Origin: Gammaproteobacteria bacterium
GTDB lineage: Bacteria > Pseudomonadota > Gammaproteobacteria > Ga0077536
Direction: 5' to 3'
Length of the DNA: 64,000 bases
Assembly (NCBI GenBank): GCA_016191285.1
Contig: JACPPA010000016.1
Location: 186,001-250,000, forward strand
The translations under genes were made by a program, and so were the position numbers. Positions 35,906 through 64,000 of the stretch are shown here, piece after piece; the stretch's first letter is position 1, and every line of letters begins with the position of its first letter. The notes under the pieces were generated by a model. It saw only the letters and a list, made by a program, of their open reading frames with translations. It searched no databases and was not told where the DNA came from.

Positions 35906-37318
35906 ATGCACATAATGAAATACGGCCCGGGCTTCTCACGCCGTCATTTCCTGCAAACAATGGGTGCAGGATTTAGCGCTGGCGTGTTGCGGCCGTTGTG
36001 GGATGTCATCGCGGAAGACGGCAAGATAGATCGTGCCTATCCCGAAGAGCTCCTCGACATCGGGGCCTATACCAAGGGCAAAGTAAAAGTCGGCGACAAG
36101 CTGACGCCTGACAACATCGACCACGTCAAAGACTTAATGGATGAAATCACTTACATCCAAGTCAAGCAACAAGGACGAATCATTGACGTAGTGGCGACGG
36201 AACGCGACGTTTATAAGTTGAACCCGCCGGACTACCTGGATGCCAGCTTACGGCACAAGGGCATGGCGAAGTTCGACGAAAAAGGGAATGTCGTCACGCA
36301 AGAAGGCAAGCCCTGGGTGGGCGGCCTACCGTGGATTAACCCGACCGAAGCGGGCCAAGTCATCGCAGCGCACAACCTGAGCTGGGGTCGTTACGACGTC
36401 GCGCAATATTGCATCGACGAATACGACATGGATGCCGATGGCAACGAGCAATACCACTATAACTTCTGGTGGTGCGAAGTCGCCGGCACTTGCCGCATCA
36501 AACAAAAACCGTATCCGTACATGCCAACGTCCACCGATTCAACCGGCGAGAAAATCTTGCGCTATCAATCGGCGGTTTGGACGCTGCCAAACGACATCAA
36601 GGGTACGTCGATTCTTAACATTTGGCCGTATGACGCCACGCAGTATCCGGATTTCTTCGGTTATTTGCCGGCCTTCAAGCGCGTCCGCCGGTTCCCGACG
36701 AACCAACGCTTCGAGCCCGTCATCGCGGGTTCAACGTTCTACTTGACCGACGCCTGGATGACGGGCGACCCGACCCTGACTTGGGGCAACTTCAAGTTGG
36801 TTGGCCGCGGCCCAGCGTTGCTCGGCACGAACGGTGGCTGGAATGCCGACGACGACAACTGGATTCTCGGTCGTCATGGCGGCAAGACCGGTAAGAAGTT
36901 CTGGAATTCGTCCTTCTCGCTGGTACCGGAAGTGTTCGTGGTTGAACTCGAACCGACCGGCTATCCGCGCGCGCCGTACAGCAAGAAACGCATTTGGTAC
37001 GATGCGCGAACCATTGCGCCGATCACGATGAACAGCTATGACCGTCGCGGGCAGGTGTGGAAGCAGTGGGAAGCGGGCTTCGACAACTTCTCCAAACCGG
37101 ATGGCCGGATGTGGAATTCCGAAGCCGGCGCCAAGGGCGGGATGTGGAGCTGGTTGTATGTGCATTCACACGACATCCAGAGCGGCCGTATCACGTCCTT
37201 CCAGCACACGAAGAAAGTGGCCGGCGGTATTACCGACAGCCGCAACTTCGGTGCGGACGGACATGAAGCGTACGACGCCTATACGACGGAAGCGGCGATC
37301 CGCCGTTTGGGAACCTAG
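35906..37318 (+). CDS. DUF1329 family protein (Tat-exported)
   Basis: A 470-residue exported protein of the DUF1329 family, which accompanies DUF1302 outer-membrane proteins and RND exporters. The N-terminus FSRRHFLQTMGAGFSAGVL is a Tat signal. Family blocks follow: YPYMPTSTD-like, ILRYQSAVWTLPNDIKGTS, ILNIWPYD, FKRVRRFPTNQRFEP and IWYDARTIAPITMNSYDRRG. A LolA-like fold that moves or binds hydrophobic ligand is suspected for the family. The start is supported by AAGGAGG. A second member lies at 63128. Its own DUF1302 partner is probably the gene at 52326. Confidence 0.85.
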   Translation: MHIMKYGPGFSRRHFLQTMGAGFSAGVLRPLWDVIAEDGKIDRAYPEELLDIGAYTKGKVKVGDKLTPDNIDHVKDLMDEITYIQVKQQGRIIDVVATERDVYKLNPPDYLDASLRHKGMAKFDEKGNVVTQEGKPWVGGLPWINPTEAGQVIAAHNLSWGRYDVAQYCIDEYDMDADGNEQYHYNFWWCEVAGTCRIKQKPYPYMPTSTDSTGEKILRYQSAVWTLPNDIKGTSILNIWPYDATQYPDFFGYLPAFKRVRRFPTNQRFEPVIAGSTFYLTDAWMTGDPTLTWGNFKLVGRGPALLGTNGGWNADDDNWILGRHGGKTGKKFWNSSFSLVPEVFVVELEPTGYPRAPYSKKRIWYDARTIAPITMNSYDRRGQVWKQWEAGFDNFSKPDGRMWNSEAGAKGGMWSWLYVHSHDIQSGRITSFQHTKKVAGGITDSRNFGADGHEAYDAYTTEAAIRRLGT

Positions 37319-48436: not shown

Positions 48437-50848
48437 ATGCAGACTTCATTACGTCACCGTTTCGCGGCGTTGGTGATCGGGAACCGGGGTACTTCGCTAT
48501 TGATCCTCGCGTCGATCACGGCGTTTTTTCTGTACGGTCTGAGATCGGTCGAGATCCGCACCATCTTTTCCGATCTCTTCCCCAAAAATCACCCCTTCGT
48601 TCAAACTTTCAAAGACCATCCCAACTTCGGCAACCCGTTGTCGATTGTAATCATGGTCAAGCGCAAGGACGGCGATATCTACAACAAGGAAACCCTCGAG
48701 AAAGTTTATCGCATGACGCGCGACATCGACCTTGCGCCGTCGGTCGACCACGACCAGATTATTTCCATCGCGACTGAAAAAGCGCGGTATGCCGAAGCCA
48801 CTCCGTACGGCGTCGACGTCAAACCGTTGATGGACGCGAGTGCACCATCCACCCCGGAAGAAATCAAGGAATTCAAGCAACGTGTCGATCGCGCGAATAA
48901 CGTGCGAACCTTTCTCATCTCCTCCGATGAAACGGCGACCCTGGTACAGGCAACCTTCATCGAACGGACGTTGGACTATGGCGCGACCTTTAAGTACGTA
49001 CAAGACATGGTTAAGCGCGAGCGCGATGCCCAACATGACGTGTACGCAGCGGGACAGCCCATGTTGACCGGTTGGGTCTACACCTTCCAACGCCAGATGC
49101 TGATGATTTTCGGTATCACGGCGGCGGCCTTGATCGGTTCCCTCGTCCTTTATATGCGCAATATTCCGGGTGTGGTGGCGCCAGTTACCGTCAGTATTGT
49201 CGGCGGAATATGGGGCTTTGGTCTCACGGGTTGGCTCAAGCAACCGATTGAACCGCTGATCATGGTGGTGCCGATGCTACTCGTTGCACGTGCGTTCTCG
49301 CATTGTGTGCAGTATCTCGAGCGCTACTACGAAATCCTGCATGAGGTCGGCGATAAACGAAAGGCTGCGCAATTATCCCTCGGCGTGATGATGGCGCCGG
49401 GTATTCTTGGCATCATTACCGACATGGTCTGTCTGTTCTTGATCGCCATCGCGCCCATTCCCGTGATGGAACGCTTCGCGGTGTTCTGCGGCTTCTGGGC
49501 CATGGCCTTGATCCCAACCGACGTGTTTTTGTCAGCCTTGCTCGCCTCTTACCTGCCGACGCCGAAAAATGTCGATGTGCTGATTGGCAAGAGCAGCAAA
49601 ATTACTTGGCATAACAAGCTGATCAAGATGTTGGGGTGGATCGCGAGTCTGACGCACGGCCCACGCGCGAAGCTAACCTCCATAATCGTGCTTATCATCA
49701 GTGCGTTCGCGATTAGCTTGATGCCGAAGCTCCAAATCGGTAACCCGGTCGAAGGCTCGAACCTGCTGTTTAGTTCTTCGGAGTTCAACACCGCGGTGCG
49801 CGCCATTAATTCGCACTTTCCAGGCCTCATGACGCTCGAAATTATTTTCGAAGGCAAAGGCGGATTGGAAGGGCCACGCGTGCTGCGCGAAGCACAAACG
49901 CTGACGACGATGCACGACATTCAACGCCAACTGGAGGCGATGGACAAGCCGCCGGCGGCGACTTTGTCGTTCGCCGATTACTTACCCGAAGCGAACCGGC
50001 TGTTTGGCGGCGGCAATCCGAAATGGTCCCCCGTTGATCCGTCGAACGAAGCCGTTAACGGCACGGTCACTGCGTTGTTGTTGGGATCGAACGCGAAGAA
50101 CTACGGTCACGTGACCGACTTCACGATGCAAAACGGCACGGTCTCGCTGTGGTACAAGAACAATAAGCAAGACACCGTTGACCTCGCGCTTAAACAAGTG
50201 CGAAGCGTGATGGACAAGGTAGGCACCGACCACCCGAACTTCACTATCCGGCTCGCGACCGGGGCGATTGCGCTTCAGCAATCGGTCAATGACGTGGTCC
50301 ATCAAAACAAATGGACGATCCTCGGCTTCTTGAACGTCATTATTCTCATCGTCTGTAGCCTTGCGTACCGCTCGGTGGTTGCCGGCATCATTCTGTTGAT
50401 TCCGGTGAACCTCTCGAATGCGCTGCTGGAAGCGGTGATGGTGTTGATGGGGATCGGGCTCGATGTCAATAGCTTGCCCATCGCGAGTATCGGTATCGGC
50501 GTCGGTATCGACTACGGCATTTATCTGGTCAGCCGTATGTGCGAGGAATTCCACGACACCGGGCATTACGGTGACGCCATTCAGAAGGCGGTGACGACCT
50601 CCGGCAAGGCCATTTTCTTCACCGCGACCATTGTCTTGGTCAGCATCATGCCGTGGTACTTCTTGTCGGACTTGAAGTTCCTCTCGGATATGGGACTGCT
50701 ACTCGTGATGGTGATGACCATCAACATGGTTATTTCGCTGATCGTGCTACCCCTCTTGGTGTGGTGGATCAAGCCGAGCTTCATTGCCAACGAGCATCAG
50801 CTAATTTCCGAGAAGATCGACTACTCCGAACACGCGGCGGCAACCTAG
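48437..50848 (+). CDS. RND-family transporter (MMPL/HAE3-like)
   Basis: An 803-residue inner-membrane RND protein with twelve hydrophobic helices in two halves. It begins with a helix (TSLLILASITAFFLYGLRSV), then a periplasmic loop with TIFSDLFPKNHPFVQTF. Helix groups lie near residues 225-390 and 625-780 (SIGIGVGIDYGIYLVSRM carries the family Asp). Single-gene RND pumps of this type occur with YCF48, DUF1302 and DUF1329 genes and are thought to move hydrophobic molecules between the membranes. No MFP or TolC gene is adjacent. Confidence 0.9.
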   Translation: MQTSLRHRFAALVIGNRGTSLLILASITAFFLYGLRSVEIRTIFSDLFPKNHPFVQTFKDHPNFGNPLSIVIMVKRKDGDIYNKETLEKVYRMTRDIDLAPSVDHDQIISIATEKARYAEATPYGVDVKPLMDASAPSTPEEIKEFKQRVDRANNVRTFLISSDETATLVQATFIERTLDYGATFKYVQDMVKRERDAQHDVYAAGQPMLTGWVYTFQRQMLMIFGITAAALIGSLVLYMRNIPGVVAPVTVSIVGGIWGFGLTGWLKQPIEPLIMVVPMLLVARAFSHCVQYLERYYEILHEVGDKRKAAQLSLGVMMAPGILGIITDMVCLFLIAIAPIPVMERFAVFCGFWAMALIPTDVFLSALLASYLPTPKNVDVLIGKSSKITWHNKLIKMLGWIASLTHGPRAKLTSIIVLIISAFAISLMPKLQIGNPVEGSNLLFSSSEFNTAVRAINSHFPGLMTLEIIFEGKGGLEGPRVLREAQTLTTMHDIQRQLEAMDKPPAATLSFADYLPEANRLFGGGNPKWSPVDPSNEAVNGTVTALLLGSNAKNYGHVTDFTMQNGTVSLWYKNNKQDTVDLALKQVRSVMDKVGTDHPNFTIRLATGAIALQQSVNDVVHQNKWTILGFLNVIILIVCSLAYRSVVAGIILLIPVNLSNALLEAVMVLMGIGLDVNSLPIASIGIGVGIDYGIYLVSRMCEEFHDTGHYGDAIQKAVTTSGKAIFFTATIVLVSIMPWYFLSDLKFLSDMGLLLVMVMTINMVISLIVLPLLVWWIKPSFIANEHQLISEKIDYSEHAAAT

Positions 50849-51052: not shown

Positions 51053-52078
51053 GTGAATAGATCACATTTGATTACGCTAGCACTCCGCTCATCGTTCGTC
51101 GTCCTGGCCCTGTTTGCCACCAACGCCGGCGCCGTCGATGCCACGGCGATGGCGGCCCCAGCGGCGAGCGAAGAGCTGGCCGAAGTTCACTCAGGCATTC
51201 CGCACGACGCCGTTTATGCGATGGCGATTGAAGGCAAAACCGGCTTCGCCGTTGGCGCGTTCGGGCAAATCCTCGGCAGCGTGGATGCCGGTACATCCTG
51301 GAAGCCAGTCGCTTCGCCGACCGTCATGGGGCTGTTTGGCATTGCGCTGAATGGCGATAAACGGATTATTGTCGGCCAGCGCGGCACCGTGCTGTTGGGC
51401 AAACCCGATGGCAGCTGGGATGCCATCAAGAGCGGTTCCGAAAAGCGCCTGATGAATGTCGCGGTCAACGCCTCTGGCCTCGCCGTCGCCGTCGGTGAAT
51501 TCGGCACGGTGTTACGCTCCAAGGACGCTGGCAAGACCTGGGAGCCGCGCAAACTCGAGTGGACGAGCTTCCGTGAAGACGGCTATGAACCGCACATCTA
51601 TGCCGTGCGCGTCGAAGACTCAGGTCGAATCACCGTCGGCGCTGAATTCGCCTATGTGATCGTTTCCGAAGATGGTGGCGAAACGTGGAAGCTGGTAAAC
51701 AAGGGTGAGAAATCGATTTTCGCGATGGACGTATTACCGGATGGCACCGGCTACGCAGTGGGTCAGGAAGGCCTGGTGCTGAAAACCCAAGACAACGGCG
51801 CGACCTGGCAGGCGGTTGATATCAAAAGCGACGCTAATTTGTTCGGCGTGTGGTGTTCGAAACACGGAGAAGTGGTCATCACCGGCATGCGCGCGCTCAT
51901 TCGAAGCAGCGACAACGGTGCCACCTGGGCGAGCTCTTCAGATCTCGAAATCGTCCGCAATTGGTATATGCCCATTGCGGTCGGTGAGGCCAGTATGAAA
52001 GCACCCGGCGGCGAGATGGTGTCCCAAATCGTGTACGTGGGCGGGCACAACGGCCGGATTTCCAAGTTGCTGCGCTAG
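51053..52078 (+). CDS. YCF48/BNR-like beta-propeller protein (exported)
   Basis: A 341-residue exported protein starting at GTG 51053 with a GAGGA site. The signal peptide (ALRSSFVVLALFATNAGA) ends near residue 28. At least five repeats of the DxGxTW type are visible (DAGTSW, DAGKTW, DGGETW, DNGATW twice), consistent with a bladed propeller. YCF48-like proteins assist assembly of membrane complexes; here it probably supports the RND/DUF1302 system. Confidence 0.87.
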   Translation: MNRSHLITLALRSSFVVLALFATNAGAVDATAMAAPAASEELAEVHSGIPHDAVYAMAIEGKTGFAVGAFGQILGSVDAGTSWKPVASPTVMGLFGIALNGDKRIIVGQRGTVLLGKPDGSWDAIKSGSEKRLMNVAVNASGLAVAVGEFGTVLRSKDAGKTWEPRKLEWTSFREDGYEPHIYAVRVEDSGRITVGAEFAYVIVSEDGGETWKLVNKGEKSIFAMDVLPDGTGYAVGQEGLVLKTQDNGATWQAVDIKSDANLFGVWCSKHGEVVITGMRALIRSSDNGATWASSSDLEIVRNWYMPIAVGEASMKAPGGEMVSQIVYVGGHNGRISKLLR

Positions 52079-52325: not shown

Positions 52326-54485
52326 ATGAAGAGGAGAGCGGGAGTGGCCAAACAACAAATTTCACGAGTTTTGATGCTGAGCGCACTGGCGGCCAGCGTC
52401 ACGATCCCGAGCGTCGCCAGCGCCGTGGATTTCAACATCACCGGCTTCATCCGCGAAGAAGTCGCGGTGTCGGTGACGAATGACCAGAATCCATACAACG
52501 ATGCTGGAAATTTATTCAACGGCAGAATCGTTCCGAATGCGACCAACCCTGCGATTTTCACCGCAAAAGGCGCTCCCGCGGCGAATGGCATTAGTATTTT
52601 CGGCGGCAATTTAAGTGGTGTCCGCACCCTCGGCACTTGTGGTGGCGGCGTAGGCGGCGTGGGTGGCGTATGCGATCCGAACGGTGATGGAGTAGCCGAT
52701 CTAAGCGCAGCAAACACCAAGCGCATCCCGTTTAACCTCTTTGCCACGCGCGCCGAAGTCGATATTCAGGCCTCGTGGACCGATAAGATTAAGACCTACA
52801 CCAAGATCCGGGCGTTCTACGATGGGTCGAGTTCCTTTACGAATACCCATTTTAACGACCAGTTCGAAACCCAATATGGCTGGCGGAACGGCGACGGCAA
52901 CCTGCTCGAAAAACATTCGAGCGAAGCGGTCGTCGATATCCCGGCGCTCTATCTCGACTACAACACCGGCCCGTTCTGGGTGCGTGTCGGCCAGCAGACC
53001 ATCGCCTGGGGCGAAGCGTTCTTCTTCCGCGTGTTCGACGTGGCGAACGGCCTCGACCTGCGGCGTCACAGCGTGCTGGACGTGGGCGCCGAGGAATTCT
53101 CGGACAAACGCGTCGCGTCGCCCGCCGTGCGCATGAGTTACACCTTCCCTAATGCGTGGGAAGTGGATACCTTCGCGCAGATGTTTTCACCGACGGTGTA
53201 TCCGGCAACCAACTCGCCGTACAACGTGGTCTTCTCCGGGTTCACCTGGCGCGACACCGGACAAATGGACGAAGCACGCAACTCGATTAATTTTGGCGCG
53301 CGCTTGAACATGCCGTTGACGGAATCGCTGACGATGTCCGCCATGGCCGTTAGCCGCGTGAACCCAGACGGCTTGGTGCGCTGGCAGGATGCGCCGACAA
53401 CGCTGTCATTTGGAAATAACCCAAGTAACGGCAGACCGAATCCGTTTTGCTTTGGCCCCAACAACGGCGCTGCGCAATTCCTCCCTAACAGCGCCATGAA
53501 GACCGCATTGCTAACGCCGCTGGCCGATGGCAAATGCGGCTCTGCCGGTATGCCCGACGAATTCGGCACTGGCTCGTGGCAGGAATGGATCACCGAAGCC
53601 GGCCTCGCCCGCCTGGATCCGCTCAACGGTGCGCGCGACTTCGCGCTGGGCGGCGCCAAGAATGCTGCAGGGGTGTCGTCGGGTGCGCTCGCCTCGATGG
53701 CGTTCGGCTTAATCCAGAATCCGAGCGGAACCGGTCCGCTTGGTGCAGTATCGGGCCCGGCAGACGTGAGCAAGGGCTTCACGACCGCCGAGACCAAAGC
53801 CTTGTTGGACGCGTTTTTTAACAGCTTCAACGGTCCCCGCGGCTTCATCACCCGCGACTTCAAGCGTGAACAAGTGTTCGGTTTGGCGGGCAACTACATC
53901 GTCTCGTCGACGCCGGGTACCTGGCTGGACCAATTGATTGTCCGCGGTGAAGTCACTGTCACCCCGAATAAGCGCTTCACCACGCTGAGCCTGTCCGACC
54001 GTGGCTACGACCGGGCGACCGAGGTGATCTCGGCGTTGATCTTGGAAAAATACCAAAGTATTTTTGAAGGGATCCCCGCGACCTACTTGGTGTTCCAGTG
54101 GATGCACCGCACCGAGACCGATATTTTTGGCCGCCGGTTGACGGGACAGGACAATCAAGGTTTCCGCGGCTGCAACGTGTTTGATCCAGCGAACCAGAAC
54201 AGCACGACCTGCGGCGCACCAAGCGGCGTCGGCAGCGCGGATTACGCGACCTTCGCGTTCCAGCAGCCGTTCCCGAACCTGATCTGGCGCGCGGACTTCG
54301 CGATGGCGGTGGATTTCGCGGGTGGTGCGTTCTTCCAGCCGGGCCTGCGCTACAAGCCCAGCTCGCAATGGCAGTTCGACCTCTATGCGAACGTCATCGC
54401 GCCGTTCACCGACAAGAACACCACCTTCACCGAAACACTCGACTGGGCTGACGAAGTGTTCGCGCGAGTTTCGTTCTTCTTCTAA
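52326..54485 (+). CDS. DUF1302 family outer-membrane protein
   Basis: A 719-residue exported protein with a signal peptide (VLMLSALAASVTIPSVASA) and a beta-strand-rich body ending WADEVFARVSFFF, the aromatic C-terminus of outer-membrane barrels. Family features are VDFNITGFIREEVAVSV at the mature N-terminus and the IDIQASWTDKIKTYTKIR-like early strands. Start may be ATG 52326 or GTG 52344. Typical partner of DUF1329 proteins; together with RND and YCF48 genes it suggests a cell-envelope pathway for hydrophobic compounds. An intrinsic terminator follows. Confidence 0.86.
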   Translation: MKRRAGVAKQQISRVLMLSALAASVTIPSVASAVDFNITGFIREEVAVSVTNDQNPYNDAGNLFNGRIVPNATNPAIFTAKGAPAANGISIFGGNLSGVRTLGTCGGGVGGVGGVCDPNGDGVADLSAANTKRIPFNLFATRAEVDIQASWTDKIKTYTKIRAFYDGSSSFTNTHFNDQFETQYGWRNGDGNLLEKHSSEAVVDIPALYLDYNTGPFWVRVGQQTIAWGEAFFFRVFDVANGLDLRRHSVLDVGAEEFSDKRVASPAVRMSYTFPNAWEVDTFAQMFSPTVYPATNSPYNVVFSGFTWRDTGQMDEARNSINFGARLNMPLTESLTMSAMAVSRVNPDGLVRWQDAPTTLSFGNNPSNGRPNPFCFGPNNGAAQFLPNSAMKTALLTPLADGKCGSAGMPDEFGTGSWQEWITEAGLARLDPLNGARDFALGGAKNAAGVSSGALASMAFGLIQNPSGTGPLGAVSGPADVSKGFTTAETKALLDAFFNSFNGPRGFITRDFKREQVFGLAGNYIVSSTPGTWLDQLIVRGEVTVTPNKRFTTLSLSDRGYDRATEVISALILEKYQSIFEGIPATYLVFQWMHRTETDIFGRRLTGQDNQGFRGCNVFDPANQNSTTCGAPSGVGSADYATFAFQQPFPNLIWRADFAMAVDFAGGAFFQPGLRYKPSSQWQFDLYANVIAPFTDKNTTFTETLDWADEVFARVSFFF

Positions 54486-54752: not shown

Positions 54753-55415
54753 ATGGAAATTAAAAATCTAGCCGATTTGATTACCTATACGTGGACGTCC
54801 GCCAAGACCTTGATTGACCTCGGCGGCACCGTAGTCGCCGTGCAATTGGTTATCTCGACCATTGGTCTTGCGATGGTGTTCTACAAAGTCCTGCAGTTCA
54901 CCACCGTGAACAACACGCGCTTCTTAGGACTCAAGAAGGCCATCGACCAATGGGGCAGTGGCGACAAGGAGAAGGCCGAGAAGACGCTTGGCCGCTCGTG
55001 GTTGAAGCTTGCCAAGGATGTGCGTTTCGGCCTCGAGCGCATCGCGACCACCGATCGTGAAGTACTGAGGGATGAACTCGCACGGCGCGGCATGGAGTTC
55101 CTCCGGCCCTACACCAAACTCTTGCGTACGCTGGAACTGGTGTACTACCTGTCGCCCGTACTCGGCTTGCTCGGCACCGTGCTCGGCATGATCGACGCAT
55201 TCCGCCATCTCGCGGCCGTGGCGGGTACCGAAAAAGGCTCGAGCGCGCTCGCTAATGGCATCTGGGAAGCCCTGGTGTGTACCGCAGTGGGGCTGGTGAT
55301 CGCGGTGATATTCACGACCCTGCACGCCATGCTGCAAACGCGCTTGGAACGTGTGTCCGAGGAAGTCTCCGATGTGCTGACGCGGGTGCTGACCATCGAC
55401 GTCCATCGTGTCTGA
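54753..55415 (+). CDS. MotA/TolQ/ExbB proton-channel family protein
   Basis: A 220-residue inner-membrane protein with three hydrophobic helices (about 24-46, 128-150 and 168-195). The conserved motifs SPVLGLLGTVLGMIDAF and ALANGIWEALVCTAVGLVIAV correspond to the proton-channel helices of ExbB/TolQ. First gene of ExbB-ExbD-ExbD-vWA-repeat protein. Its stop overlaps the GTG start of the first ExbD (GTGTCTGA). It should use the proton-motive force to drive an envelope partner. Confidence 0.93.
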   Translation: MEIKNLADLITYTWTSAKTLIDLGGTVVAVQLVISTIGLAMVFYKVLQFTTVNNTRFLGLKKAIDQWGSGDKEKAEKTLGRSWLKLAKDVRFGLERIATTDREVLRDELARRGMEFLRPYTKLLRTLELVYYLSPVLGLLGTVLGMIDAFRHLAAVAGTEKGSSALANGIWEALVCTAVGLVIAVIFTTLHAMLQTRLERVSEEVSDVLTRVLTIDVHRV

Positions 55416-55845
55416 AGTCGCTCGCGTTTCGTTATCGCTGGGTCGGCGCAAGAAGCGCCCGATCAAGATCACGTTCGTGCCCTTGGTCGACTGCTTCATC
55501 ATCTTGCTGATTTTTTTCATGCTTGAGAGCAGCTTCGTGATCCCGCACGGCGTTGAACTCAATAACTCAAAAAAGGAAGAGAACAAGCCGGTAGGCACCA
55601 CGAGCTCGGAATCGACCCTCTTGTTCGTCGAACTGCATAAGGACGGCAGTGTGTGGCTCGATGGCGATAAGCTCGCCTTCAGTCAACTTAGGGCTCGCGT
55701 ACCGCGTGTCAAGGGCGAAGCCAAACCGGTGATCATTGCCAGCGACGTGGGCGTGCGCCTGCAAACCGCCGTGGACGTGATCGATGTGTTGAATGCGCGC
55801 GGGTATTCGAAAATCTCCTTGCGCGAAACGCAGCAGTTCAAGTGA
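55408..55845 (+). CDS. ExbD/TolR-like protein 1 (with conserved Asp)
   Basis: A 145-residue protein with a short cytosolic N-terminus, one helix and a periplasmic domain. The proton-carrying Asp28 lies in FVPLVDCFIILLIFFM, the normal position for ExbD/TolR. It starts at GTG 55408, overlapping the ExbB-like stop by 8 bp. A second ExbD-like gene with a substituted residue follows after a REP unit. Confidence 0.92.
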   Translation: MSEVARVSLSLGRRKKRPIKITFVPLVDCFIILLIFFMLESSFVIPHGVELNNSKKEENKPVGTTSSESTLLFVELHKDGSVWLDGDKLAFSQLRARVPRVKGEAKPVIIASDVGVRLQTAVDVIDVLNARGYSKISLRETQQFK

Positions 55846-55860
55846 TGAAACTCGAATTCG

Positions 55861-55971
55861 AAGATTCGCGGATAAATCCGCTCCCACCGCGAGGAGTCCC
55901 TGTGGGAGCGGCTTCAGCCGCGAATCTTTGCTGCCTCAATGTTCCATTCGCGGCTAAAGCCGCTCCCGCAC
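55861..55971. repeat. Double REP unit between the two ExbD genes
   Basis: Three palindrome arms: CCGCTCCCAC on the left (inverted), TGTGGGAGCGGCTTCAGCCG in the middle and an inverted CGGCTAAAGCCGCTCCC on the right. It separates the two paralogous ExbD genes. Confidence 0.85.
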
Positions 55972-55993
55972 AAATCGGGATTAAGCGTGCCGG

Positions 55994-56437
55994 ATGCTAG
56001 ACCGTAACCGCTCGATCATGGATCTCGCCGGCAAGAATAACGCCGACGACGCGCGCGATCGGCGGTGGGAAAGCACGTTCTTCATGATCAACGTGATCTT
56101 CCTGTTGATTTTGTTTTTCATCGTCGCCGCCAATTTTGATGTGCAGCTGCAGATTTTTCCGCCCAAATCTTCGGCCTCGAACGCCTTAGGTCCGAGCGCG
56201 GTCCAACTCACGTATAACCGTGAAGGCACGTTGTACCTGAACGGCGAGACCCTCGCGCGCCCACAGCTTAAGTCGAAGATTCAGGCGCTCGGCAAGGGCA
56301 TCGAACTCAAACTGGCGGCGGATGCGAATTTGGATGCGGTTAAAGTCGCGAAGCTAATTCAGGAATTATCCGAGGCCGGCGTGTCTCGCATCGGGATTGT
56401 AACGGTGGCTCGCGAGAATGTTGATAATGTTAAGTAG
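55994..56437 (+). CDS. ExbD/TolR-like protein 2 (Asp replaced by Asn)
   Basis: A 147-residue ExbD/TolR paralogue with one helix (TFFMINVIFLLILFFIVAA) and a periplasmic domain (QLTYNREGTLYLNGETLARP). The residue aligned to the proton-carrying Asp is Asn33, encoded AAC, so this copy should not translocate protons itself. ExbD works as a dimer within an ExbB pentamer; a hetero-dimer with the Asp-bearing copy is plausible. ATG 55994 has no strong ribosome site, lying close to a REP unit. Confidence 0.88.
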   Translation: MLDRNRSIMDLAGKNNADDARDRRWESTFFMINVIFLLILFFIVAANFDVQLQIFPPKSSASNALGPSAVQLTYNREGTLYLNGETLARPQLKSKIQALGKGIELKLAADANLDAVKVAKLIQELSEAGVSRIGIVTVARENVDNVK

Positions 56438-56458
56438 TGTCACTTATTCGCTATGTAG

Positions 56459-56525
56459 ATTCGCGGCTAAAGCCGCACCCACAACACAGTCAATGAGCAC
56501 TGTGGGAGCGGCTTTAGCCGCGAAT
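56459..56525. repeat. REP palindrome pair
   Basis: Inverted arm CGCGGCTAAAGCCGCACCCA then TGTGGGAGCGGCTTTAGCCG. It ends 37 bp before the vWA gene start. Confidence 0.85.
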
Positions 56526-56562
56526 ATTCCCCACGCAGTCCTCCAGTAATCCTCCCCTCGCA

Positions 56563-57771
56563 ATGCCGCGTTTTGTCCTCTGGGTGTTATTGATAACGAT
56601 CTCGATCCTGATCCACGGGCTATCGGCGTCGCGCGTGGGCAGCGAGATCAAGCAATCGACCGCCGATTTAGCGCAAACGACGGCGGGCGCCGCGCATCGC
56701 CAAGTGGTTATCGAAATTCCGCCCGATTCGCCCAAGGCCAAGGCCGTGGAAGAAGAAGCCAAACTCGATGAGCCGCTCGATTTCGAGGAAGATTTCGAAC
56801 TCGATCCGCCCGAAGTCTTGGTGGCGCCACAAGCCGTGGCGCCACCGCCGCCGAATGTCGCGTTGTCGTTGAAGGCACAGGCGGGCGGTGCGGGTGAAGC
56901 TAGTGGCCCCGTGGAGATTGCCGTGGCGACACCGGATGTCGCGGGCCTGGTTAAGCGCGCGAACATTCCGACTGTCGGCATTCTAGGCCCGACGACAACC
57001 GGTGGCACCAGCGGCGGGCGCGGCGGCGGGACGTCGGGCTTTGGCATCGGGATCGGGAATGCACTCGGCGGATCGTCCAATCAATTTGCCGCCTACATCG
57101 CCGGCATGCGCGAATCGGGCCTCGATGTGGTGTTCGTGGTCGACGCCACCGGCTCGATGGGTTGGGTGCTCGATGACGTTAAGCAGCGAATTCACGAAAT
57201 TGAAGCGGTGATCCGCTCGTTGGTGCCCATCGCGCGCTTCGGGATGGTTGCGTATCGCGACAAGGACGATCCCGAATTTAAAGTGAAGGCGCAAACGCTG
57301 ACCTATAGCACGATCAAAATGCAGAACTTCATTCGCGGTCTCGAAGCGAAGGGTGGCGGCGATCTTTATGAAGACGTGCTCGACGGCATCATCGCGGCGG
57401 TTGAACATGCCGATTGGCGCCTTGGTGCGCGCCGGATCATCATTCTCGTGGGCGATGCGCCGCCAGCCGACGACAAGCTCGACGAGATCCTGCATTACGT
57501 CAAAAAATTCAGCAGCTCGGGCGGCGTGGTTTCGACCTTGGATGTCAGCGACGAATCGAATCCGGAAGCGGTGGAAGCCAAGGTCGGACGCAAGGTCAAC
57601 CGCGCGATGTATCGCACGGACACCATGCCGAATTTCAACGTCATTGCCAACGCGGGTAATGGCGACTCGGCCAGCCTGGAAGGCGAGATCAGTATTTCAA
57701 AACGCTTGATCACGCTGATTATGGGTAGCCAATTCGCCAAGGAAATGGGCCCGCTATTGGACCTTATATGA
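56563..57771 (+). CDS. Membrane-anchored vWA-domain protein with TonB/TolA-like topology
   Basis: A 402-residue protein. An N-terminal helix (FVLWVLLITISILIHGL, residues 4-20) is followed by a Glu/Pro-rich spacer (about 50-100, including EEEAKLDEPLDFEEDFELDP and APPPP). A Gly-rich linker (about 145-172) then leads to a vWA domain from about residue 185, with MIDAS motif DATGSMG (Asp194, Thr196, Ser198). The spacer and anchor resemble TonB/TolA, but the C-terminal interaction domain is replaced by vWA. It lies in the motor cluster right after the two ExbD genes, with no obvious ribosome site and a REP just upstream. Confidence 0.85.
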   Translation: MPRFVLWVLLITISILIHGLSASRVGSEIKQSTADLAQTTAGAAHRQVVIEIPPDSPKAKAVEEEAKLDEPLDFEEDFELDPPEVLVAPQAVAPPPPNVALSLKAQAGGAGEASGPVEIAVATPDVAGLVKRANIPTVGILGPTTTGGTSGGRGGGTSGFGIGIGNALGGSSNQFAAYIAGMRESGLDVVFVVDATGSMGWVLDDVKQRIHEIEAVIRSLVPIARFGMVAYRDKDDPEFKVKAQTLTYSTIKMQNFIRGLEAKGGGDLYEDVLDGIIAAVEHADWRLGARRIIILVGDAPPADDKLDEILHYVKKFSSSGGVVSTLDVSDESNPEAVEAKVGRKVNRAMYRTDTMPNFNVIANAGNGDSASLEGEISISKRLITLIMGSQFAKEMGPLLDLI

Positions 57772-57799
57772 TCTTTCGCGCAGAACTATCGATTTCTAC

Positions 57800-57874
57800 T
57801 GTGGGAGCGGCTTTAGCCGCGAAGACCGGGCCAGCCTTTTCGTTGCGCAGATTCGCCGCTAAAGCGGCTCCCAC
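57800..57874. repeat. REP palindrome pair ending at a start codon
   Basis: TGTGGGAGCGGCTTTAGCCG and the inverted arm CCGCTAAAGCGGCTCCCAC. The final CAC runs straight into ATG of the next gene at 57875, leaving no room for a conventional ribosome site. Confidence 0.85.
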
Positions 57875-60112
57875 ATGATGCGCGGTTCAATCGGTTGCCA
57901 CTGCCGTGCGCTGAGCCGAATACTAGTGGTGGTGACACTGGCCATGAGTGCGCCGGGCGGAGCGTCGGCGGGCAACGACCCCGTTGGTCTTGCGGAATCG
58001 CAGCTAGTGCGCCTCACCTCGGCCGCGCCCACCGAGGACTACGCCCTGATCGCGCGTGAGTTTGGCGCAACGATCGATACGGTGCGGCAAGCTGGCGCAC
58101 CCGACGCTACCTTGACCCGTCTGCGCCAACTCTCCACGCAAATGCGCGATCGCACTCACGAACGCCTGCGGGCGGCGGAAGCGGAGGCCTGCGATAGCGA
58201 AGGCGCGTTGGAACAGATCTATAAATCGCGAACTTGGGACGATTTAAGTTTTGCCCTCGCGGCATTTCCGTACTGGAGCGCGTGGCTCGATTTCACCTTG
58301 GCCGAGCGGCCGTCGCAAGCGGCCCATCGCGCGCAACTTCTGTATCACGCAAAGCGCGGATTTCGCGGCGCATCGATGCAAATTTTCCAACCCAACTTGG
58401 TGTATGGCGGTTGGCTGGGACTCGGCTACCTCGCCAATCTCGAAGGCCAAACCGCGCGCGCCACGCAGATTTTCGAAGCCTTGAAAAAAGCCTTAGCGGC
58501 CGATACCAATCATCCGGTCTACAAAATGGCGGAGGCCGAACTCGCGGTCATGCGCGGTGGCGCGCGACCCGTCATGGCCGCGGCGAGCCCCAGTGCGAAC
58601 GCCAGCGCCGCCAACGGCGAAACCGAAATTCTGCATGCGGAAGCGATGCGCCTATTACAGCAACATCGGGTGAAAGAAGTGGGCGCGCGTGAAGCCGCCG
58701 AGCGCATACGAAAAATCATCGCATCGAATCAAATGACGATGACGATCTTGAACGATGTGCTGGAATTCCAGAAAGAGATCGCGCGCGAGGATCTCGGCGA
58801 GTACACCGACCTGGTGCTCGCCGAGTACAATTTCAACAATCAGCAATGGTTCACCGCCGTCGGCAAGTACAAGGCTTTTTTTCAGCACGAACCGCGGACG
58901 CCGGGCCTGAATTTCGATCGCTTTAAATACCGGCTGGCGGTCGCGTACTTGAAAAGCAATTTGAATGACGAAGCGGCGCGCGAAGCGGAAAAGCTGCTGC
59001 GTTCTGGGGTTGAGCCGGATGTGCAAAAGGCGGCGACCAAATTAGCGTACATCGCGCGCGCGCAGCTGGCGGAGAACCATACCCTGAGTACCCAGCAGAC
59101 CGCACTCGCGACCGCCGCCAAGCGCTTCCTGGCCGCCAGTCCCACCGATGGAGATGCCGATGGCGCGCGCTTGATACTGGCACAGCAAAGCGGAGATCCG
59201 GGCGCCGCCCTGCGCTATCTCAACAGTGTGAAAGCCACGGGACGCTTTGCTGGCGGCGTTGAGCGCACGCGCTTTTACGTGCTCGCCAAGGACTTCGCGC
59301 ACGCGGCGCAAACTGGCAACGGACTCGAGCAAATCGCCAAAGACGCCATGAGCGCGTGGCAGGAGTTGCCGGCAGACGAAAAAAAATCGCTGCAAAATCA
59401 AGCGTTCTTTATGCAACTGCAGGCGGTGATCGATCCGGATCCCAATCGCATCTTAAAAGCGATTGAACTGGCGGAGCAAAAAAATCCCGCCGCCGGCTCC
59501 ACGGTATTGCGCGCGTATTTGTGGTCGCGCCTAAAGCTCTATGAACGGTTGGGTCAACCCGAACGGTTATTGGCGGATATCGAGGCACGGGGCGATCTTC
59601 CGATCGAGGCATGGCGGCTGGAGCAATATTTTCCGTTCGTGCGCAAGCTGAAGGATATGAGTCTGCGGGTGAACATCGCTTCGGCCCTGGCGCCACGCTT
59701 AAAAGCGCAACCGGAAATGGAACGGCGTTTTCGACTGTTGCAAATTGAAGATTGGTTGAGCATGAACGACGGCGAAAAGGCCTATGACGCAGCTAAGCGC
59801 CTGATCAAGGATTATCCCCGTGCGGGGGACGGGTATCGCGTGCTGGCGAAGGCCGCGCAGCAGACCAAGCGCTTCGTTGAAGCGGATAACGCCTGGCGCA
59901 TCATCACCGAAAAAGTTCCGCCCAAGCAGGATATCTGGTGGGAGGGGATGCTGAGCCGCATCGAGATCCGTGCTGACTCGACACGGCCGGAGGCGGCGTG
60001 TGAGTTGGTTACTGCTGTCGCCCGGCGGTTGCCGGCGCCGAACGATCACTATAAGTCGCGCTTCAATGCATTACGGCAACGCACCGATTGTCGCGTGTCG
60101 GCGGGGGCTTGA
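57875..60112 (+). CDS. Large exported helical-repeat (TPR-like) protein
   Basis: A 745-residue protein with a signal peptide (ILVVVTLAMSAPGGASA, end near residue 33), otherwise helical, with repeats of the TPR/SEL type (for example GWLGLGYLANLEGQTARATQIFEALKKALA and AAREAEKLLRSGVEPDVQKAATKLAYIARAQLA). It probably forms a periplasmic scaffold or partner for the vWA protein. Starts at ATG 57875 (or 57878) at the very edge of a REP palindrome. Last gene of the motor cluster before a palindromic element. Confidence 0.75.
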   Translation: MMRGSIGCHCRALSRILVVVTLAMSAPGGASAGNDPVGLAESQLVRLTSAAPTEDYALIAREFGATIDTVRQAGAPDATLTRLRQLSTQMRDRTHERLRAAEAEACDSEGALEQIYKSRTWDDLSFALAAFPYWSAWLDFTLAERPSQAAHRAQLLYHAKRGFRGASMQIFQPNLVYGGWLGLGYLANLEGQTARATQIFEALKKALAADTNHPVYKMAEAELAVMRGGARPVMAAASPSANASAANGETEILHAEAMRLLQQHRVKEVGAREAAERIRKIIASNQMTMTILNDVLEFQKEIAREDLGEYTDLVLAEYNFNNQQWFTAVGKYKAFFQHEPRTPGLNFDRFKYRLAVAYLKSNLNDEAAREAEKLLRSGVEPDVQKAATKLAYIARAQLAENHTLSTQQTALATAAKRFLAASPTDGDADGARLILAQQSGDPGAALRYLNSVKATGRFAGGVERTRFYVLAKDFAHAAQTGNGLEQIAKDAMSAWQELPADEKKSLQNQAFFMQLQAVIDPDPNRILKAIELAEQKNPAAGSTVLRAYLWSRLKLYERLGQPERLLADIEARGDLPIEAWRLEQYFPFVRKLKDMSLRVNIASALAPRLKAQPEMERRFRLLQIEDWLSMNDGEKAYDAAKRLIKDYPRAGDGYRVLAKAAQQTKRFVEADNAWRIITEKVPPKQDIWWEGMLSRIEIRADSTRPEAACELVTAVARRLPAPNDHYKSRFNALRQRTDCRVSAGA

Positions 60113-60354: not shown

Positions 60355-61917
60355 ATGCGGGTGATCGACTTTTTCGATAAGGCAGTGCAGGCAACGCCGA
60401 CACGCACCGCGTTCCGATCCAACGCCCACGCCTACACCTATCGCGAGATGCGCGCACTGTCGGTGCGCATTGCCAACGCTATTCACGCGCGAGGTCTAAC
60501 GGATGCCGGCCGCATCGCCGTGTATTCTCCTAACGATGTGCAAGCCTTCGCCTGTGTGCTCGCCGGCTTTCGCCTTGAAGCCACGTGGGTGCCGATCAAT
60601 GCGCGCAATGCACTCGAGGCCAACCTTGAATTCATGAATTTGACCGAATGCGAATGGTTGTTTTATCACAGCAGTTTCGCCGACCACGTACACACTATTC
60701 GTGTCGAAGTCCCTAGCCTTAAACAGTTGGTGTGTATCGATCGCCGAGATGGTACGACACCGTCGCTAGCCGAATTTATCGCCGGCGCGAGTGATGCTGA
60801 AATTCCCGACCGTGCTTACGAACAGCATCGAATGACGACCATCCTCGGCACTGGTGGCACCACCGGACGCTCAAAGGGTATTCTCTGGGATAACCTCACG
60901 TGGTCCACGCTGATCGCTGAAGCGACGATCGCCATGCCGCCGGGCGGCCGATCGCCAGTGCATTTATGTGTAGCACCGATGACCCACGCCGCCGGGATCT
61001 TGACCTTTATGTTGACGCCGCAAAGTCCAACGAATGTGGTGCTCGATAAGATCGATCCGCTCGAGATCATGATGGCCATCGAGGAACACAAGGTCACGCA
61101 CTTATTTCTGCCACCGACCGTCCTCTACGCGATGCTCGCGCATCCACGCGTCCGGAAGTTCGATTACGTTTCGCTCACGCATTTTTTGATCGCGGCCTCG
61201 CCGGTTGCGCCGGATAAGCTGGCCGAAGCCGTGGAGGTTTTCGGTCCCTGCATGTGTCAATGCTATGGTCAGGTCGAAGCGCCGATGCTAGTCACCTATT
61301 TGCCGCCGGCCGAACTTGCCGCCGCCGCATTTGAGCCGACGCTGCGTCATCGACTGAAGAGCTGCGGGCGGCCGGGTGCGCTCAGCGTGATGGCGATTAT
61401 GGATGACGATGGCGCCCTCGTCCCGCGGGGTGAAAAGGGCGAGGTGGTGGTGCGTGGCGATCTCGTCGCGCCCTGCTATTACCGCAATCCCGAAGGCACG
61501 GCGGAAGCGCATCGCTTCGGTTGGCATCACACCGGCGACGTCGCCTACTGGGACGAGGATGGGTACGTCTACATCGTCGATCGTAAAAAAGACATGATTA
61601 TCACCGGCGGATTCAATGTGTTCTCGGCTGAAGTCGAAGCCGCGATCAACGGTCATCCCGCGGTCGAGAACTGCGCGGTTATCGGCGTGCCGGATCCGAA
61701 ATGGGGCGAAGCCGTGACGGCGATTGTGTTACTGCGACCCGATAAAACCGCAGATGCGCATGAGATCATCGAATTTGCCAAACAGCGACTCGGGAGCGTC
61801 AAAGCTCCGAAGAACGTTGAGTTTTGGCCCGACCTTCCGCGCTCGCCAGTCGGCAAGATATTAAAGACCGAGATCCGTAAGAAGTTTTGGGGCGGGACTG
61901 AGCGCGCCGTGAATTGA
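60355..61917 (+). CDS. AMP-forming acyl-CoA ligase
   Basis: A 520-residue ANL-superfamily ligase that activates a carboxylic acid with ATP and CoA. The phosphate-binding loop ILGTGGTTGRSKG (about 158-170), the motif QCYGQVEAPMLVTY, and the hinge region HHTGDVAYWDEDGYVYIVDRKKDMIITGG are complete. The C-terminal catalytic Lys lies in SPVGKILKTEIRKKF. It could provide the CoA ester of a beta-keto acid made by the carboxylase cluster (as benzoylacetate-CoA ligase does in acetophenone degradation), but substrate is not evident from sequence. Upstream GAGG site supports ATG 60355. Confidence 0.92.
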   Translation: MRVIDFFDKAVQATPTRTAFRSNAHAYTYREMRALSVRIANAIHARGLTDAGRIAVYSPNDVQAFACVLAGFRLEATWVPINARNALEANLEFMNLTECEWLFYHSSFADHVHTIRVEVPSLKQLVCIDRRDGTTPSLAEFIAGASDAEIPDRAYEQHRMTTILGTGGTTGRSKGILWDNLTWSTLIAEATIAMPPGGRSPVHLCVAPMTHAAGILTFMLTPQSPTNVVLDKIDPLEIMMAIEEHKVTHLFLPPTVLYAMLAHPRVRKFDYVSLTHFLIAASPVAPDKLAEAVEVFGPCMCQCYGQVEAPMLVTYLPPAELAAAAFEPTLRHRLKSCGRPGALSVMAIMDDDGALVPRGEKGEVVVRGDLVAPCYYRNPEGTAEAHRFGWHHTGDVAYWDEDGYVYIVDRKKDMIITGGFNVFSAEVEAAINGHPAVENCAVIGVPDPKWGEAVTAIVLLRPDKTADAHEIIEFAKQRLGSVKAPKNVEFWPDLPRSPVGKILKTEIRKKFWGGTERAVN

Positions 61918-61959: not shown

Positions 61960-62045
61960 ATTCGTCGCTAAAGCGACTCCCACAACTGTGACTCCCACAA
62001 AAGTCCTGAGCTCGTTTTCATGTGGGAGCGGATTTATCCGCGAAT
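61960..62045. repeat. REP palindromes upstream of the COG0523 gene
   Basis: Inverted arm TCGTCGCTAAAGCGACTCCC, a partial repeat CTGTGACTCCCACA, and TGTGGGAGCGGATTTATCCG ending GCGAATCC. The probable start codon of the next gene follows five bases later. Confidence 0.8.
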
Positions 62046-62049
62046 CCTG

Positions 62050-63030
62050 ATGAAGCCTAAAATCGCCGTCAGCCTGCTCACCGGCTTTCTCGGCAGCGGC
62101 AAGACCACCTTGCTCTCGCGGTTGCTCACGCAACCGGAGCTCGCGAACGCCGTCATCATCATTAATGAATTCGGCGCGGTTAGCATCGATCACTTGATCG
62201 TCGCGAACTTAAGCGAATCCGTGGTGGAACTCAAAAACGGCTGCTTGTGTTGCACCATTCGGACTGATTTGGTCATGACCTTGCGCGATCTATTCCGGCA
62301 ACGGCAGCTGGGAGAAATTCGACCCTTCGATCGCGTGATCGTCGAGACCAGTGGGTTGGCCAATCCCATTCCACTGCTACACACGCTGATGGCAAACCCG
62401 CCGCTGATGCAAGTGTATGAAGTGGATTCGGTGGTGACAGTGGTCGATGCAGTCAACGCGGCCACTACCCTGCCGGCGCATCAAACGGCGAGCGATCAGG
62501 TCGCGTTGGCAGATCTCATCGTCGTCAGCAAACAAGATATCGCGACGCCGGCTGAACTCGCAGCGACCGAAGCCCTGTTGGCGACGCTCAATCCACGGGC
62601 GCTGCGCTACGTTGCCACGGGCGCTAATATTGCTTCGCAACAATTGTTCGGCCAACGTCTCTTTCAAGCGACGCTATCGTTGCTTAAGCGCGAACACGAC
62701 CCGGCGCACGCGGGCCACGACCACGCTGCTCACCACTACGCGAGCCACGTGATCGTGCATCCGGCGCCGTTGAGTTTGGCCGGCACCACGGTCTTTTTGA
62801 ATCGACTGGTCAACGAACAACGTGAGGAAATCCTGCGGATTAAGGGGATTGCTGGGTTTCGCGAGACAGGCGGACGCCCCGCCGTTATTCACGCGGTGCA
62901 GAATAAGTTTTACCCGCTACAATGGCTGTCGGATTGGCCTGACAGCGATACCAGTTCTAGATTGGTCTTTATCGGGCGCACGCTAAATACATCGCGAATC
63001 AACGAACAATTTGCCGCGCTCAGCGTCTAA
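62050..63030 (+). CDS. COG0523 GTPase (CobW/ZigA-type metallochaperone)
   Basis: A 326-residue G3E-family GTPase. The P-loop is TGFLGSGKTT (residues 11-20), the metal motif CLCC (Cys65, Cys67, Cys68) is canonical, and a His-rich stretch (HDPAHAGHDHAAHHYASH, near residue 220) suggests Zn2+ delivery. ATG 62050 is preferred; an in-frame upstream ATG at 62020 lies inside a REP arm. It may load zinc into the gamma-like carboxylase subunit or the metallopeptidase (inference). Confidence 0.9.
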   Translation: MKPKIAVSLLTGFLGSGKTTLLSRLLTQPELANAVIIINEFGAVSIDHLIVANLSESVVELKNGCLCCTIRTDLVMTLRDLFRQRQLGEIRPFDRVIVETSGLANPIPLLHTLMANPPLMQVYEVDSVVTVVDAVNAATTLPAHQTASDQVALADLIVVSKQDIATPAELAATEALLATLNPRALRYVATGANIASQQLFGQRLFQATLSLLKREHDPAHAGHDHAAHHYASHVIVHPAPLSLAGTTVFLNRLVNEQREEILRIKGIAGFRETGGRPAVIHAVQNKFYPLQWLSDWPDSDTSSRLVFIGRTLNTSRINEQFAALSV

Positions 63031-63127
63031 CCCTCATTAACCGATCGCCGGTGGCAGCGCAGCGCGCAGCCACGGGAACTCGCGCCGGCTAAAGAGTTCC
63101 GAACCTCGTCTTAACGGAGTGCTCATC

Positions 63128-64000
63128 ATGCGGATTCTCAAGTACGATTTTAATTACAGTCGGCGCCATTTCATCAAACAGACCGCGCGCGGCGTGCTGG
63201 GCGCTGGGGTGTTCGGCAGCGTCTGGGACGCGGTGGCTAAGAACGGGACCTTCGAGAACGTCTATCCTGACGAATTAATGTCGATCGAGATGTACACCAA
63301 GGGCAAATTCAAGCCCGGTGACATCATCGATGTGAACAATGTTGACGACGTCAAAGATCTGCTCGACCCGATTCGCTTCATGCAGATCAAGCAAATGGGC
63401 CGTAAACTCCAATTGGTCGATTCGGTTAAGGACATGACACGCTTGAGTCCCATCGACTACATCCAAGCGACTTTGCGCAATAAAGGCCAGGCGCAGCTCG
63501 ATGCCATCGGCAATATTTATACGAAAGAGGGCAAGCCGTGGATCGGCGGCAATCCATTCCCCGAACCGACCACCGGCGCCGAATGCTTCATTCCGATTAC
63601 CCTGTCGTGGGGGCGGCACGATGTGTCGTTCTACACGATCAAGGATTACGAAATCAGCGACGAGGGCGAGCAGACCCACCATTACGAAGTGTGCTGGTGC
63701 GAATACGCTGCGGTCGGCCGCGTGACGATTGATCCCAAACCTTACTTGACCGGCGCGGAAAATAAACTCCGCTATCAATCGGTGTTCTTTACGTACCCGA
63801 ACGATGCCAAAGGCACGTCATTCTTAAATATCTGGGAGTACGACCAAACCAAATTCCCTGAGTTGATGGGCTTCCTGCCGCAGTTCAAGCGGGTGCGGCG
63901 GTTCCCGTCGAGCCAGCGCTTCGAACCTTTGATTCCTGGCACCACGCTGTACTTATCGGATGCGTGGACCGCGGGCGATCCGTACCTCACATGGAGTAAT
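63128..64000 (+). CDS. DUF1329 family protein, second copy (partial, runs off window)
   Basis: Clear paralogue of the 35906 gene. The Tat signal YSRRHFIKQTARGVLGAGV is followed by the same blocks: YTKGKFKPGD, LRYQSVFFTYPNDAKGTSFL, NIWEYDQTKFPELMGFLPQF, KRVRRFPSSQRFEP. 291 codons are visible and the 3' part is missing. A GGAG-like site precedes ATG 63128. It probably belongs functionally with the DUF1302 gene at 52326. Confidence 0.87.
   Translation, partial: MRILKYDFNYSRRHFIKQTARGVLGAGVFGSVWDAVAKNGTFENVYPDELMSIEMYTKGKFKPGDIIDVNNVDDVKDLLDPIRFMQIKQMGRKLQLVDSVKDMTRLSPIDYIQATLRNKGQAQLDAIGNIYTKEGKPWIGGNPFPEPTTGAECFIPITLSWGRHDVSFYTIKDYEISDEGEQTHHYEVCWCEYAAVGRVTIDPKPYLTGAENKLRYQSVFFTYPNDAKGTSFLNIWEYDQTKFPELMGFLPQFKRVRRFPSSQRFEPLIPGTTLYLSDAWTAGDPYLTWSN

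Follow-up and report, generated by a model that had tools for sequence, protein, structure and literature searches.

An ExbB/ExbD-type motor locus with an Asp/Asn ExbD pair and a membrane-anchored vWA protein: a candidate motor class with a single proton site

Results

A five-gene motor module within a longer gene run

The subject of this analysis is a 64,000-nucleotide stretch of a gammaproteobacterial genome (assembly GCA_016191285.1, contig JACPPA010000016.1, forward-strand positions 186,001 to 250,000), referred to as the window, and within it a five-gene module at positions 54753 to 60112. The module encodes an ExbB/TolQ-like subunit, two ExbD proteins (ExbD1 and ExbD2), a membrane-anchored vWA protein, and a helical-repeat (TPR-like) protein, all on the plus strand and in that order (Table 1). 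Pfam matches and open reading frames (ORFs) agree in this respect with an initial annotation made from the sequence alone. That annotation had set the limits of the cluster at these same five genes; the genes stand, whereas the self-contained extent does not, since the module is embedded in a longer same-strand run that begins with an MMPL gene and ends with a DUF1329 gene crossing the window end. The second ExbD, called ExbD-like there, is not an ordinary ExbD: its ion-site Asp is replaced by Asn33.

Table 1. Features of the motor module and of the surrounding gene run (window coordinates)
Feature	Position	Strand	Evidence
MMPL-type RND (resistance-nodulation-division) transporter, HAE3-like	48437..50848	+	Pfam MMPL E=3.9e-28; NCBIfam HAE3 model match under its cut-off
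YCF48/BNR-type protein, predicted exported	51053..52078	+	Pfam PSII_BNR E=2.6e-15
DUF1302 protein	52326..54485	+	Pfam DUF1302 E=3e-26
ExbB/TolQ-like subunit	54753..55415	+	Pfam MotA_ExbB E=5.6e-24
ExbD1, ion-site Asp (D28) kept	55408..55845	+	Pfam ExbD E=2.6e-21
ExbD1 Asp28 codon (E. coli ExbD Asp25 position)	55489..55491	+	
ExbD2, Asn33 replacing ion-site Asp	55994..56437	+	Pfam ExbD E=3.3e-15
ExbD2 Asn33 codon	56090..56092	+	
Membrane-anchored vWA protein, candidate force transducer	56563..57771	+	Pfam VWA_4 E=1.6e-13
MIDAS (metal-ion-dependent adhesion site) motif DATGSM, vWA protein residues 194-199	57142..57159	+	
TPR-like all-helical solenoid, predicted exported	57875..60112	+	TPR_19 E=4.8e-4, weak, under its cut-off
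Acyl-CoA synthetase	60355..61917	+	Pfam
CobW-family protein	62020..63030	+	Pfam
DUF1329 (LolA-like family) gene, truncated by window end	63119..64000 (to 64507 in window numbering)	+	ORF L291:15120-16508; match to family hidden Markov model

The vWA protein has the layout of a TonB/TolA-type transducer

The structural model of the vWA protein features a helix (residues 3 to 43), a mostly low-confidence or disordered region (residues 44 to 170), and a vWA fold (residues 172 to 402). The protein contains a Glu/Pro stretch and a Gly-rich linker, the low-confidence segments fall within residues 44 to 170, and the motif DATGSMG begins at residue 194. For comparison, 30 vWA proteins from Gamma-, Alpha-, and Deltaproteobacteria (as labelled by title), the window's included, were aligned; all 30 match VWA_4. 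Among the MIDAS residues, D194, T196, and D298 are invariant and S198 is nearly so, and in the anchor helix S14 and H18 (S14-x3-H18) are invariant in 30/30, a degree of conservation beyond chance. According to the accessible text of PMC12215075, the residues Ser16 and His20 of E. coli TonB contact ExbB Ser34 and Trp38 in a cryo-electron microscopy structure. A TonB/TolA C-terminal domain was not found, Pfam returning only vWA families for the window protein and its 29 aligned relatives; in a fold search, the modelled vWA domain matched BatB and integrin I domains. The anchor, spacer, linker, and intact MIDAS named in the initial annotation are confirmed, and the TonB/TolA-like layout that it had proposed holds up in comparison, the motor-contact Ser and His being conserved. 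Coupling of the vWA arm to the motor is likely.

The TPR protein was modelled as an all-helical solenoid with a mean predicted local distance difference test (pLDDT) value of 89.8 and has two near-invariant C-terminal residues, Cys709 and Cys739. A PflA/LbcA/SprE-like identity was rejected, the matches being those of generic solenoids with low TM-scores.

Gene order is conserved beyond the window genome

Forty-seven loci with vWA genes were compared: that of the window, 27 further own-family loci from 26 genomes, and 19 others (one read from genome G154), which were drawn from among the matches listed (at least 80 loci, including 34 close relatives, L105 to L138). Same-contig duplicates of family loci were dropped before counting, and no pair among the 47 shares more than 14% of 40-mers. 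The comparison leaves aside 46 of the loci listed, in which no ExbB or ExbD was found near the vWA gene (L139 to L184), and generic own-family vWA loci lacking a motor (L065 to L074 and L076 to L078). An ExbB gene lies upstream of the vWA gene in 39 loci, is absent from 5, and could not be judged in 3 (39/44 testable); two ExbD genes are present in 40, absent from 5, and unjudgeable in 2 (40/45 testable). The TPR gene follows the vWA gene in 46/47 loci; L128, counted as lacking it, has a TPR match whose ORF begins inside the vWA gene. The gene order, whose presence in other genomes had been named as a check, is therefore conserved.

Sampled Pseudomonadota genomes outside the window's own family yielded, at E <= 1e-20 and beyond generic vWA matches, only G154 and, distantly, G389. 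Seven plasmid records contained relatives of the vWA protein, none with 80% query coverage.

One ExbD keeps the ion-site Asp and the other carries Asn

The pore Thr residues T142 and T177 of ExbB as well as S35, which aligns with E. coli ExbB Ser34, are invariant in 22/22 aligned proteins. The ion-site Asp of ExbBD/TolQR motors is present in ExbD1 and absent from ExbD2: in alignments of 25 sequences each, most of them 20 to 40% identical to the window's, ExbD1 D28 is invariant and so is ExbD2 N33, which aligns with D25 of E. coli ExbD. Residue read-out gave the order Asp-then-Asn in 40/40 readable vWA-linked pairs, 7 of the 47 loci having no readable ExbD pair. As a control, the ExbDs outside vWA-linked pairs were read in eight genomes, and Asp was found in 32/32, two of which form the Asp/Asp pair of G018, a pair of the same lineage as the vWA-linked ones. 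An ExbD-Asp/ExbD-Asn heterodimer appears probable, a degree of confidence below that given to coupling of the arm.

Two variants stand beside this pattern. At L242:9620-12641, a distant vWA-ExbB-ExbD-ExbD arrangement has the vWA gene first and an Asp/Asp pair, and a rule covering all vWA-linked motors was rejected on its account; the L242 vWA protein has matches at E <= 1e-15 in 2/398 genomes, the window's own and G668. In ExbB, the Glu of a G-I-W-E stretch is Gln in 4/22 motors of the vWA set and Val, Leu, or Gln in 7/16 TonB-type loci.

Asp/Asn pairs also adjoin TonB genes

When a profile of ExbD2 was searched against 398 Pseudomonadota genomes, 29 loci besides the window's were read with 1.5-kb flanks, giving 10 Asp/Asn pairs, 2 Asp/Asp pairs (L256 and L267), and 17 single Asp ExbDs. 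Sixteen regions were then fetched (the 10 Asp/Asn, that of L256, and 5 more chosen from the listing), of which 15 are Asp/Asn, L287 being read as D-then-N from its ORF ends, and one, L284, is Asp/Asp. A TonB gene follows in all 16; Pfam identified it in 8, and a small profile built for TonB did so in the remaining 8. On a plasmid of the marine strain Leisingera aquaemixtae M597, the order ExbB-ExbD(Asp)-ExbD(Asn)-TonB adjoins a siderophore receptor.

A search of 142 alphaproteobacterial genomes returned 24 loci in 22 genomes at E <= 1e-22: 20 Asp/Asn (19 by script and L303 by eye), 1 Asp/Asp, and 3 single Asp. Among these matches, 19/142 genomes carry an Asp/Asn pair, one of them vWA-type. Three of the 20 loci repeat earlier ones, and L297 and the vWA locus L133 are one and the same DNA, which leaves 16; a TonB-like gene lies within the 1.5-kb flank in 13 of these, and none was seen there for L301, L304, and L315. 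At L303 (L303:1045-1908), the Asp and Asn ExbDs read as a single ORF, and a natural ExbD-ExbD fusion was considered; since a second frame contains what looks like a normal ExbD terminus together with a stop, a frameshift is the more probable explanation.

Altogether, apart from the 40 vWA-linked pairs there are 32 distinct Asp/Asn ones (15 + 1 + 16), of which 29 adjoin a TonB-like gene. Because the TonB-type loci were picked by similarity to ExbD2, the Asp/Asn share among them is not a prevalence. In 72/72 cases (40 vWA-linked and 32 other distinct loci), the Asn-ExbD has an adjacent Asp-ExbD. Two other accounts were discarded on these grounds: the Asn-ExbD is not exclusive to vWA systems, as it also adjoins TonB genes, and the 40/40 vWA-linked pairs together with the 32 other loci argue against the quirk of one lineage.

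In a tree of 109 rows, the second-position ExbDs (40 with Asn and 2 with Asp, L240 and L284) fall into a single group supported at 100/97, and the first-position ExbDs into another supported at 99/88; the corresponding values in an earlier 101-row tree were 100/97 and 93/93. The alignment underlying these groupings is short and several branches are long. The simplest reading would be one old duplicated ExbD pair that later joined TonB or vWA arms.

A hydrophobe-transport gene set surrounds the module

Genes for RND, YCF48-like, DUF1302, and DUF1329 proteins occur together at the window locus, as in an AmeABCD-type set. Across the 47 loci, DUF1302 is present upstream in 21, absent from 16, and unjudgeable in 10; the figures are 15, 13, and 19 for MMPL and 23, 14, and 10 for DUF1329 downstream. 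Excluding the 10 alphaproteobacterial loci, the same three counts become 21, 8, and 8 for DUF1302 (21/29 testable), 15, 6, and 16 for MMPL (15/21), and 23, 7, and 7 for DUF1329 (23/30). Outside alphaproteobacteria, the module usually adjoins the MMPL-YCF48-DUF1302-DUF1329 hydrophobe-transport set. Since 3 of the 21 DUF1302 loci lack the motor (L051, L052, and L053), both are present in 18. Downstream, an acyl-CoA synthetase gene occurs in 13/41 and a CobW-family gene in 12/39 testable loci.

Alphaproteobacterial loci with enough flank, Rhodobiaceae/PS1 being among their labels, carry the five genes without DUF1302, YCF48, and MMPL. Both scanned transporter-free loci have acyl-CoA dehydrogenase genes upstream: at the Pfam-scanned alphaproteobacterial locus L133 two of them with an enoyl-CoA hydratase gene, and at L123, whose group includes a member labelled Porticoccaceae, three genes of acyl-CoA dehydrogenase type, with DUF1329 downstream.

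According to the accessible texts, AmeA and PP_0765, both related to the DUF1302 protein, have been described as proteins of the outer membrane or of beta-barrel type (PMC6394551, PMC10866462), growth of P. putida on Tween20 needs a DUF1302 protein, a DUF1329 protein, a periplasmic protein, and an efflux transporter (PMC10866462), and a transposon insertion in ameB, which encodes a DUF1329 protein, reduces growth on monoterpenes (PMC6394551). We link the module to hydrophobic substrates because of its gene neighbours, the Tween20 growth of P. putida, and the monoterpene growth that involves AmeB. That the motor powers a lipid-type transporter is possible, at slightly less than an even chance. 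The gradings given here for coupling, heterodimer, and transporter are judgements and not computed values.

Several side observations were made. A single ORF at L127:4250-6586 carries DUF1329 and YCF48/BNR domains, a hint that both transport parts act together. At the deltaproteobacterial locus L128 (L128:4724-13056), vWA and TPR genes adjoin MMPL and YCF48 matches, with no motor upstream of the vWA gene in the 9.6 kb covered at this locus. In G018, an ExbB-ExbD-ExbD set with an Asp/Asp pair (L240:7662-9501) lies between two MMPL-like genes, away from the vWA locus of that genome. Elsewhere in the window, features named by eye from the translation comprise a second DUF1329-like gene with a twin-arginine-like N terminus (35906 to 37318) as well as several hydantoinase/acetone-carboxylase-like gene pairs, a thiolase-like gene, and a halogenase-like gene (26242 to 46374). 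An alkane proteome of Thalassolituus was set aside as functional evidence; its accessible text names TonB-ExbB-ExbD in general terms only and has 0 vWA matches.

Discussion

We propose that ExbD1 (Asp) and ExbD2 (Asn) form the heterodimeric core of a proton-driven ExbB/ExbD-type motor, which would therefore possess one of the two usual proton sites. The vWA protein would dock on ExbB via its Ser14/His18 helix, in the manner of TonB and TolA, and motion of the motor would pull its disordered acidic/Pro linker. The vWA domain would hand this pull on to a partner in the periplasm or outer membrane, for which the TPR solenoid is the likeliest candidate; by way of the solenoid, the pull may reach the MMPL-YCF48-DUF1302-DUF1329 route, which would carry hydrophobic substrates, for example fatty acids. 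For the whole proposal, that a one-Asp motor pulls a vWA arm to drive or gate a hydrophobe transporter, we see an even chance.

Several findings weigh against this proposal. On the side of docking, the L and S of the SHLS motif, which fall on V25 and the nearly invariant I29 of the window protein when spaced as in the E. coli TonB helix, are not conserved in the 30 aligned vWA proteins, and ExbB has another residue in place of Trp38. On the side of the motor, the distant vWA-linked motor of L242 is Asp/Asp, and the related motor of G018 sits apart from the vWA locus and is likewise Asp/Asp; the Glu of the ExbB G-I-W-E stretch varies as well. G010 and G013 keep the vWA, TPR, DUF1302, and DUF1329 genes with no motor at the locus, and their best ExbB matches elsewhere reach 1.9e-29 and 1.5e-27, respectively, where the unlinked G018 motor gives 8.1e-70. 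A motor is missing as well from L128 and from L075, which is a second copy in G014. As to the transporter, 8/8 alphaproteobacterial loci with enough flank have no DUF1302 upstream, and 8 other loci are alike. Finally, 32 of the 34 closest loci among the matches listed are labelled as metagenome-assembled genomes.

Other uses of the arm have to be considered. In a Tol-Pal-like envelope-maintenance role, the vWA domain would pull a scaffold in the periplasm or outer membrane, and the nearby transporter genes would be incidental, for which speak the loci where the module occurs without DUF1302, MMPL, and YCF48 (well-flanked alphaproteobacterial loci, L122, L125) and the match of the TPR model, if generic only, to other solenoid scaffolds. 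We regard this role as unlikely, since divergent relatives keep the transporter genes around the module and the two scanned transporter-free loci are adjoined by acyl-CoA dehydrogenase genes. A vWA chaperone or scaffold of the BatB kind, having nothing to do with force, would fit the fold matches to BatB and integrin I domains; the invariant Ser/His anchor helix and the adjacency of the motor make it quite improbable, and no AAA+ partner gene was noticed adjoining the vWA gene, although none was searched for. Least probable of all appears a gliding or adhesion motor: the accessible text of PMC12204202 suggests a gliding-like role for the family and cites a vWA protein in Myxococcus gliding, whereas the identified neighbours here are transport- or lipid-related, and no gliding gene was noticed, none having been searched for.

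A further question is whether ExbD2 belongs to the working pore. If it were a regulatory or plug subunit outside the pore, the active motor would be an ExbD1 homodimer, a view favoured by the loss of activity that the same change, D25N, causes in E. coli ExbD (PMC11658791, accessible text). Against such a subunit stands the retention of Asn33 and its helix in ExbD2s often only 20 to 31% identical to that of the window, as well as the formation of two matching tree groups by first- and second-position ExbDs; we therefore consider it unlikely, about on a par with envelope maintenance, and retain the heterodimer as the preferred reading.

In structures of such motors, the pore contains two Asp residues that are essential (PMC12215075, accessible text). 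A motor that naturally pairs one Asp with a conserved Asn would be a ready-made test of the need for both proton sites. Tentatively, and with somewhat less than even confidence, we suggest that the pairs represent a widespread class of proton-motive-force motors built with a single proton site, with a co-inherited ExbD-Asp/ExbD-Asn heterodimer and a TonB or vWA arm, the vWA version being coupled to lipid transport. If so, two alternating carboxylates would not be required for force, and the vWA version would couple a single-site motor to lipid transport across the envelope.

Comparison with known systems

The initial annotation had called the machine undescribed, which fails because PMC12204202 (June 2025) already describes vWA proteins as TonB/TolA-like transducers beside tolQ, two heterologous tolR, and TPR genes; their function is called unknown in its accessible text, and the operon setting reported here offers them a testable substrate class. 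The main text of PMC12204202 has 0 matches for asparagine, heterodimer, and RND, and in the open-licence literature searched we found neither an Asp/Asn ExbD pair nor such a motor beside a transporter described. Neither the Asp/Asn ExbD pair nor the MMPL-YCF48-DUF1302-DUF1329 setting was part of the initial annotation.

The window protein resembles the vWA force transducers of PMC12204202 (Fig. 4a,b) in its Ser/His anchor helix, disordered linker, and vWA end domain, and its locus resembles theirs in the tolQ-like, paired tolR-like, and TPR neighbours. With the TPH-vWA proteins of the same paper (Fig. 4c,d), it shares a vWA gene beside a tolQ-like gene, but in those the Asp sits in the vWA helix and an ExbD gene is not found, whereas the ExbDs are separate here. 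AmeABCD of Castellaniella, in which AmeD is an HAE3-type RND protein and AmeC a relative of photosystem II stability factors (PMC6394551), and PP_0765/0766/2018/2019 of P. putida, where PP_2018 and PP_2019 are given as periplasmic and efflux proteins (PMC10866462), both have DUF1302 and DUF1329 proteins in common with the window locus; unlike it, neither set is mentioned with a motor or a vWA protein in the accessible texts.

TolQ-TolR-TolA with CpoB likewise combines a motor, an anchored transducer, and a periplasmic TPR protein (the window's is predicted to be exported), while the vWA end domain and a different TPR protein set the present module apart; no TolB or Pal gene was noticed adjoining it, in the course of work that included no search aimed at them. 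Finally, the module agrees with E. coli TonB-ExbB-ExbD in the pore Thr residues of ExbB, the Asp of ExbD1, and the Ser/His of the transducer, and differs from it in that a vWA domain replaces the TonB C-terminal domain, in its two ExbD genes, one of which carries Asn, and in its TPR protein.

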